From Candidatus Brocadia sp. (GTDB lineage Bacteria; Planctomycetota; Brocadiia; Brocadiales; Brocadiaceae): a stretch of DNA of 64,000 bases. The translations under genes and the position numbers were made by a program. The notes under the pieces are model-generated. The model did no database searches. It was given only the letters and a program-made list of their open reading frames with translations, and was not told the origin of the DNA. Positions 1-1,307 of the stretch are shown here, piece after piece. The stretch covers positions 1-64,000 of the forward strand of contig WYAU01000020.1 of assembly GCA_011525665.1 (NCBI GenBank). The letters are read 5' to 3'. The first letter of the stretch is position 1; each line of letters begins with the position of its first letter.

Positions 1-46
1 TAATTCTTATATTATTCAGTGTATACATAAATCGTCATACAAAAAT

Positions 47-81
47 AGCCACAACCCATTGTTTCATCATAGGTTGTGGCT
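47..81. repeat. Inverted repeat (hairpin)
   Basis: Two perfect 10-bp arms, AGCCACAACC (47-56) and GGTTGTGGCT (72-81), enclose a 15-nt loop. There is no T-run beyond a short TTA on the + side, so it may be a transcription-end hairpin of a gene outside the window or a dispersed palindrome. Nothing else was recognised in the first 128 bases. Confidence 0.6.
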
Positions 82-128
82 TACCGCCCCGCCTTTATAT
101 CAACTTCTGTAATAAACTCACGCTAGGG

Positions 129-745
129 AGTGGCGTCTGAGCAACCAGGGGTCGTAAGTTCTTAATTGGGCAAAGCTGCAGGCCGCAGCGCAAGCGAACC
201 TACAAGTAGCCTCGTCAATACCAAAACGAAGATGCCGACCTCGTGGACACGTGGGGAAGGCCGAAGATTGCAGACACAGACAACGGAAGGAGTCTGTAAT
301 ATCTTTCGGGGTAGCAGGGGCGGCATGCAGTGGAAGATAAACAGACCAGTGCTGGAGACCCTATGCAGTATGTTTGAGGGGCATAAACCGCTCTGTATAA
401 GGAAACGAAATCACAGCGGGCTGTATAGGGAGTCGGAGGGGTTCATGGTACCGTTTGAGGACAAGGGACAATAAAACCCTGTTCGAGGAAAGGAACCCTG
501 CTTTGTTCATGCAACCGAAGAGTAGAGGAAAAGGGAGATTGCAGAAATGCTAACAATCCCGGAAAAGATCAGGATACTACAGAGGAAGCTATACCGAAAG
601 GCCAAGCAAGAACCAACCTACCGCTTCTACGCCCTCTATGACAAGGTATTCCGGGCGGACATCCTCAGTCATGCCTACGCCTTGTCCGTGCCAACAAAGG
701 GAGCGCCGGGATAGGCGGCGTAACCTTTGAGGCCATCGAGGAGAG
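129..745 (+). mobile_element. Truncated group II intron (5' RNA part plus start of its RT gene)
   Basis: The stretch upstream of the reverse-transcriptase start is about 400 nt long, untranslatable in a sensible way and rich in short purine-rich helices, as expected of the domain I-IV RNA of a bacterial group II intron. It leads directly into an intron-encoded RT reading frame that begins at 547. The element stops after about 65 RT codons: no RT catalytic domain, no maturase domain and no domain V/VI hairpin are present downstream. The 5' boundary is uncertain. This is a dead fragment of an intron. Confidence 0.6.
547..745 (+). pseudogene. ltrA: Group II intron reverse transcriptase/maturase, N-terminal fragment with frameshift
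   Basis: From ATG 547 the frame gives MLTIPEKIRILQRKLYRKAK and continues with QEPTYRFYALYDKVFRADIL, matching the N-terminus of the LtrA-type RT subfamily that has KLY-KAKQEP and FYALYDK. The frame hits a TAG near 714. A one-base loss near 682-686 restores RANKGSAGIGGVTFEAIEE, the conserved RT-0 block (NKG-G-GGVTF). Similarity ends near 745, so the polymerase active site (YADD) and maturase domain are missing. It is certainly non-functional. Confidence 0.7.
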
Positions 746-965
746 AGAAGGGGTATGGACGATATATCCCTCTGTGCAATTTATTTACAGAACACACATG
801 AGTTTGAGCTGGATTGCCGACCAAGCCAGTGGCAATTTGAGGCCATCTGACATCTACATAAACAAGTACACGCCAACAAGTATTCGAAAAACACAGTAAC
901 AAAAACCCAAGAGCCATTATTATTCTAAGTCGATAACATTTAATAAACGGATATACACTGATCAT
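745..965 (-). pseudogene. 5' remnant of the gene downstream of the c-di-GMP riboswitch
   Basis: A minus-strand frame starts at ATG 965 just downstream of a riboswitch-terminator unit. It encodes a basic N-terminus and a hydrophobic stretch (IIMALGFLLLCFSN), which looks like a signal peptide or membrane anchor, followed by a Trp/Val-rich segment. After about 70 codons it runs into sequence antisense to the intron RT, where the rest of the frame is chance translation. I do not recognise the protein. The reading is supported by position and the hydrophobic start only, so this is tentative; the alternative is that the real target has been lost entirely. Confidence 0.3.
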
Positions 966-1082
966 AATCTTCTTAAATTTGCCGAGTGAATAAGTGATTT
1001 ACCTCTTGGGTTTTTCACACCAATTAAGGATGAACATTGATTTGGGAAGGAACAGTTTATTATCAAGTTTGCATGCCCTATA

Positions 1083-1137
1083 AAACAAAAAGCCTTACTG
1101 CAAAAATGTTCATTTAAAACATCTTCGGCAGTAAGGC
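1083..1137 (-). terminator. Riboswitch expression-platform terminator
   Basis: On the minus strand, arms GCCTTACTGC (1137-1128) and GCAGTAAGGC (1101-1092) pair. Inner pairing between GATGTT and AACATT extends the stem, and a T-rich tract (TTTTTGTTTT) follows. It lies about 25 nt downstream of the riboswitch aptamer on the same strand, the usual arrangement for transcription-terminating c-di-GMP riboswitches. Confidence 0.7.
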
Positions 1138-1162
1138 CATCTCTTTATGAATACAGTAAATT

Positions 1163-1246
1163 CGTCTTTAGCAACCTACATCCGTGTACGTCTGAAAAGA
1201 CCCTTTTACTTTGCGTCCCCTGATCACTCAGGGTTTGCCCTTATCG
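1163..1246 (-). promoter_or_regulatory. Cyclic di-GMP-I (GEMM) riboswitch
   Basis: Read on the minus strand, the sequence contains GGGCAAACCCTGA, a GTGA loop of the GNRA class closed by CCCTGA/TCAGGG, and then GGGGACGCAAAG. These are the hallmark parts of the GEMM-I aptamer: the GGCAAACC block, the P2 helix capped by a GNRA tetraloop, and the invariant GACGCAAAG junction. A second helix with GGATGTAGGTTGC follows, corresponding to the P3 side with its tetraloop receptor. A terminator hairpin follows and a sigma-70-like promoter precedes it on the same strand. It would sense c-di-GMP and control the minus-strand transcript running toward position 965. The aptamer call is strong; switching direction (on or off) cannot be read. 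Confidence 0.85.
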
Positions 1247-1278
1247 TGATGTATTTTTTTGATAAAGTGTGTAAGTGT

Positions 1279-1307
1279 GTAAAATACACTTTTTTTCCCC
1301 ATGTCAA
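1279..1307 (-). promoter_or_regulatory. Probable sigma-70 promoter of the riboswitch transcript
   Basis: On the minus strand TTGACA (1307-1302) is followed after 17 nt by TTTTAC (1284-1279). The -35 is perfect and the -10 is poor. The predicted start near 1272 would place the aptamer about 25 nt into the transcript, consistent with its use. Confidence 0.45.

Follow-up and report, generated by a model that had tools for sequence, protein, structure and literature searches.

A c-di-GMP-I riboswitch of predicted ON type, parted from its target gene, and its many copies in Candidatus Brocadia

The element that lies on the minus strand close to the left end of the window, the window being the whole 64,000-nucleotide stretch of Candidatus Brocadia DNA that was analysed, is a genuine c-di-GMP-I riboswitch of known class for which an ON mode of action is predicted. 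It is most probably a transcriptional switch whose target gene has since been cut by mobile elements, so that it now probably controls no working product. The window unit is one of about 35 copies in the genome as opposed to a lone element, and the expansion of this cassette within the lineage is of more interest than the window copy itself. The features discussed below are collected in Table 1.

Table 1. Features of the riboswitch locus at the left end of the window (window coordinates).
Feature	Positions	Strand	Evidence and details
Repeated element end (IS-like)	1-127		Contigs C52 and C43 start with the same 127 bases
Degenerate group II intron with broken reverse transcriptase frame, cutting off the target gene	114-830	+	RF02005, 44 bits (cut-off 49); translations
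Target-gene remnant: signal-peptide-like start and about 50 codons, the rest replaced	675-965	-	Similarity to WS118 exported protein
Intrinsic terminator	1083-1138	-	5' arm 1138-1128 with 1101-1091; inner stem 1126-1117 with 1111-1102; then TTTTTGTTTT
c-di-GMP-I aptamer, true extent	1123-1248	-	RF03167, 58.2 bits; RF01051, 39.0 bits
Switching strand CCTTACTGC	1128-1136	-	Used by P3/J3-1 of the aptamer and by the 5' arm of the terminator
Decayed duplicate of the 3' arm (AAAGACGAATTTACTG), rival for the P3 5' strand	1154-1169	-	Correct P3 fold 7.4 kcal/mol above minimum
Predicted promoter	1279-1307	-	TTGACA 1307-1302, 17-nt spacer, TTTTAC 1284-1279 (weak, 3/6)

The initial annotation had described a GEMM-I aptamer at this position, and the scan with the RF01051 covariance model that it had proposed as a check returned a minus-strand match at 1249-1167, which exceeds the gathering cut-off of 35 bits (cmscan of the window). 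RF03167, which belongs to the same clan and has a cut-off of 59 bits, matched 1248-1123 on this strand with an E value of 1.2e-12 in a permissive scan of positions 1-2000, its score being 0.8 bits below the cut-off. The two alignments agree over the 5' half and differ in the 3' strand, where that of RF03167 is right: it locates GATGGCCTTACTGCCGAAG (1141-1123) as the canonical P3/J3-1/P1 strand, while the RF01051 match ends at 1167 and puts an unrelated stretch into the pairing. The elements on which the annotation had been based, namely GGGCAAACC, a P2 helix capped by GTGA and GACGCAAAG, are all to be found. With residues numbered according to the Vc2 scheme of PMC3764141, the c-di-GMP contacts established for Vc2, i.e. 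G20, A47 and C92 (PMC4744006, PMC3764141), are kept in the window copy at 1239, 1212 and 1128, respectively. The interhelical C44-G83 pair is likewise intact (C 1215, G 1137), and the GNRA tetraloop (GTGA, 1227-1224) is present together with its receptor of C59 (1199), U60 and G79 (1141). P3 contains one additional A, at 1205.

The promoter assigned by the initial annotation, comprising TTGACA, a 17-nt spacer and a weak -10, is borne out by the sequence at 1307-1279, and the -35 call is strengthened by the genome as a whole, 11 of its 36 units having an exact TTGACA no more than 70 nt upstream. The terminator reported there exists too, complete with a T-rich tail; the stretch 1143-1083 has a folding energy of -28.4 kcal/mol (z -6.95), a value equalled by none of 200 shuffles, and a simple consensus terminator scan gave no match at 1138-1083. 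What did not stand is the description of the terminator as a separate block after the aptamer, since its 5' arm (1138-1128) includes the 3' strand of the aptamer (1136-1128). This overlap, which had been overlooked, is predicted from the layout to set the direction of the switch as ON.

The genome (3.63 Mb in 111 contigs) contains 35 RF01051 matches above the cut-off; RF03167 recovers the same set, with 21 sibling units scoring at least 59 bits. Whole aptamers span approximately 94-157 nt, and nearly all of the units consist of an aptamer ending in TTACTGCCGAAG that continues into a terminator bearing CAGTAAGGC and a T-run. G20 is kept in all 36 genome matches, and C92 in every match whose 3' end is complete. 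Within the genus the count per genome is 19-56 matches, compared with mostly 0-3 in other planctomycetes (a phylum sample of 294 genomes, with at most 14 candidates scored per genome). A 21-base core of the unit was matched exactly in at least 108 genome stretches, and the 80 that were listed are without exception planctomycete records, among which are the genus names Brocadia, Jettenia, Kuenenia and Scalindua. Dispersal of the unit by phages or plasmids was considered and rejected: distant blastn gave no match to it in either, and a 20-base core had none in viral contigs. Closely spaced or tandem units on the same strand were observed on contig C17 between 8996 and 11055 (11055-10962 with 10768-10675, and 9308-9211 with 9095-8996) and also at C58:13867-18887.

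A set of 156 distinct units, at least two of which are false (L138, L150), was assembled from this genome and its relatives. The terminator shares its strand with the aptamer in 142 of them, and the residues A47, C44, G79 and G83 are kept in 155, 154, 154 and 147, respectively. Compensatory changes are evident in P2, where the 29-38 pair occurs as four pair types, and, in smaller number, in P3 and in the stem of the terminator. The switching strand hardly varies, which leaves covariation there thin. Invariance of the 3' strand has in part been selected, because many of the 156 loci were fetched by the core pattern, but it is seen also in the unbiased covariance-model matches of the genome.

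Downstream of the riboswitch on the minus-strand side the contig ends after 1083 bases, and the repeat at its very end probably marks the border of an IS that broke the assembly. Brocadia sp. WS118 has an orthologous locus (G008:C62), which aligns with window positions 830-1265 at 79%. There, the riboswitch leads into a normal sense gene, with no intron at that place, which encodes an exported protein of 225 codons; the match of this protein to the endonuclease/exonuclease/phosphatase family is weak (E 5.6e-4, below cut-off), and the gene may itself end early at a contig end. The window open reading frame at 965-675 shares 50% identity over 52 amino acids with the start of the WS118 protein (E 6e-14), indicating that the target was cut after about 50 codons, at approximately 830. 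Of the gene that the window riboswitch would control as its 5' leader, these codons are what is left, the gene being longer in WS118. A whole-genome search found the target gene in just two of 11 genomes of the genus, namely the window genome and WS118. The possibility that the unit is an orphan that never had a gene was rejected, given the target gene of the WS118 orthologue. The local circuit that the initial annotation had thought plausible between the riboswitch and the HD-GYP and chemotaxis genes of the window is not supported: the HD-GYP gene is indeed present (C5:40434-40754), but the riboswitch faces away from these genes and towards the truncated exported protein. First guesses at orthologues made by riboswitch similarity alone (L059, L061-L064) were discarded, as they have different downstream genes and no synteny in common with the window, except that L062 shares a toxin-antitoxin region. 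This region, at 1495-2033 of the window, encodes a RelB/Phd-like antitoxin and, after it, a ParE toxin; it is 87% conserved in L062, with a riboswitch unit some 2.8 kb off.

The window copy may also be impaired as a switch. In minimum-energy folding the decayed duplicate pairs with the 5' strand of P3 better than the true arm does, so that binding by this copy may be poor. The resulting gap to the correct fold is the largest among 35 siblings (mean 2.8 kcal/mol, sd 2.5), as calculated without ligand and tertiary contacts. The duplicate arm is intact in the WS118 orthologue; on the folding model, its decayed form may bias the window copy towards the terminated state, and the copy may be drifting. 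Similar duplicates were counted in five other units. Duplication of the 3' arm (GAYARCCTTACTGYA...) just ahead of the real one recurs at C71:6726-6851, L046, L051, L061, L146 and L260, and could provide a decoy that tunes the switch. A more extreme reading, which we regard as a serious contender albeit not the favoured one, takes the window copy to be a dead relic that has resembled a riboswitch without switching since the gene was lost. The truncated target, a folding gap that is the worst of 35 copies, the additional A in P3 and the weak -10 are all in keeping with this, whereas the core and ligand-contact residues are intact to the last and the terminator is fully paired. The relic reading is compatible with an ON mode of action for the family as a whole.

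The assignment of c-di-GMP as the predicted ligand, made already by the initial annotation together with the GEMM-I class, stands as a prediction; the genome encodes a full c-di-GMP system, for which domain searches gave 20 GGDEF, nine EAL and seven HD_5 matches. Hypr GGDEF enzymes that make cGAMP carry Ser at the selectivity residue, and an A20G swap reverses cGAMP selectivity in Geobacter riboswitches (PMC6456294). The selectivity residue could be read in 17 of the 20 GGDEF matches, and was Asp in 16 and Asn in one; no Hypr serine was present among these, or among the GGDEF domains that could be read in B. pituitae and B. sapporoensis. G20 in the window copy, coupled with the lack of Hypr Ser among the readable domains, favours c-di-GMP. 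An aptamer that senses 3',3'-cGAMP, as does Geobacter GEMM-Ib, and so reports on a Hypr GGDEF enzyme, would be in keeping with the ON architecture shared with Geobacter pilM, and a few units of other Brocadia genomes do have the cGAMP-type base; nevertheless, the G at 1239 of the window copy and the absence of Ser from the readable GGDEF domains of all three genomes render it improbable. The A20 units number five (L041, L048, L116, L192 and L223) and occur beside many G20 units. Since no GGDEF domain readable in B. pituitae or B. sapporoensis has Hypr Ser, these units may, judging by sequence, have decayed, respond weakly to c-di-GMP or depend on some other source.

As to how the c-di-GMP switch would operate, positions 1136-1128 are needed by both folds, and aptamer P3 and the terminator are therefore mutually exclusive. 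In folding of growing transcripts the terminator hairpin takes over once 1101-1091 is transcribed. During transcription, the P3 5' strand (1210-1199) would first pair with the 3' strand (1141-1130), and C92/C93 (1128/1127) would close the c-di-GMP site. With c-di-GMP bound, the shared strand would be held in the aptamer, no terminator would form and the polymerase would read on; in its absence, 1101-1091 would capture the shared strand, and the terminator hairpin so formed would stop transcription. c-di-GMP is predicted to turn expression on because this sharing of a strand matches the published layout of the ON switch Geobacter pilM, whose aptamer and terminator folds are described as mutually exclusive, whereas both coexist in the OFF switch Cd1 (PMC9262584). 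An OFF switch, in which the ligand favours termination as in Clostridioides difficile Cd1, is improbable: OFF-type GEMM-I switches exist (PMC9262584) and the terminator lies directly 3' of the aptamer here, but the coexistence of the two in Cd1 is at odds with their common need for 1136-1128 in the window unit, and likewise in the 142 strand-sharing units of the larger set. An antisense mode of action, with the unit working on the opposite strand against the group II intron remnant, is scarcely credible, for although antisense-acting riboswitches have been proposed (PMC9943018) and the remnant is antisense to the read-through RNA, the intron reading frame is broken and the WS118 locus has a sense gene and no intron.

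The first genes downstream of the sibling riboswitches encode a diverse range of products, including a cytochrome c'-like protein, cytochrome P460, exported proteins with Kelch and RCC1 repeats, surface proteins with Ig-like, fn3 and M23 domains, a pilin-like DUF1559 protein, a matrixin protease and an amidase. One sibling unit precedes a sigma-54 response regulator, the C10 unit has UDP-GlcNAc 2-epimerase as the second gene downstream, and many of the remaining downstream proteins begin with a hydrophobic, export-like segment. The unit at G000:C15:16183-16298 precedes a phage-type tail sheath operon, which may encode a contractile injection system controlled by c-di-GMP. Other units precede a PAS-GGDEF cyclase (G000:C60:5251-5374) and a PAS/GAF-GGDEF-EAL protein (C53:6722-6811), a placement that suggests feedback on c-di-GMP itself; if the ON direction is true, a cyclase behind an ON switch would give positive feedback. 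On balance, we lean towards a genome-wide c-di-GMP ON regulon in Candidatus Brocadia, in which 19-56 near-copies of one riboswitch-terminator cassette have been dispersed ahead of unrelated surface, respiratory, secretion and signalling genes, with positive feedback via a riboswitch-controlled diguanylate cyclase.

Anammox bacteria, to which Candidatus Brocadia belongs, account for a large part of nitrogen removal from wastewater and grow in aggregates, and little is known of the control of their surface genes. The common riboswitch cassette flags about 35 loci of one genome as a predicted c-di-GMP regulon that is open to study by in vitro transcription and calls for no genetic work in the organism. 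The window copy, for its part, is an example of a cassette outliving its gene. No paper on these riboswitches was found in the open-licence literature searched, and such papers may exist beyond that scope.

Compared with known systems, the Brocadia units resemble Vc2 of Vibrio cholerae, which is of the RF01051 type, in the P1-P2-P3 layout, the tetraloop and its receptor (C59, U60, G79), the C44-G83 pair and the residues G20, A47 and C92. They differ from it in having a long variable P3 loop and a 3' strand built into the terminator; position 19 is A in most siblings, as against G in the window copy. The 3' half of the window copy aligns well with RF03167 (c-di-GMP-I-GGC, a name presumably denoting G20-G47-C92). 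However, that family has a consensus of G47 (GACGCGAAG), whereas the window copy, in common with nearly all of the 156 units, has A47, the c-di-GMP-I base. Assignment to RF03167 was rejected on this residue, and the score is below the cut-off besides. With Cd1 of C. difficile, a c-di-GMP-I OFF switch, the window unit has the aptamer class and an intrinsic terminator in common, but the aptamer and terminator of Cd1 are separate, with an antiterminator between them, in place of the shared strand of the Brocadia unit. There is likeness in architecture to the cGAMP ON switches of the GEMM-Ib type, Geobacter pilM among them, where the strand that stabilises the aptamer doubles as a terminator strand (PMC9262584), although the window copy has G20 as opposed to A20 and its genome is without a Hypr enzyme among the readable GGDEF domains.
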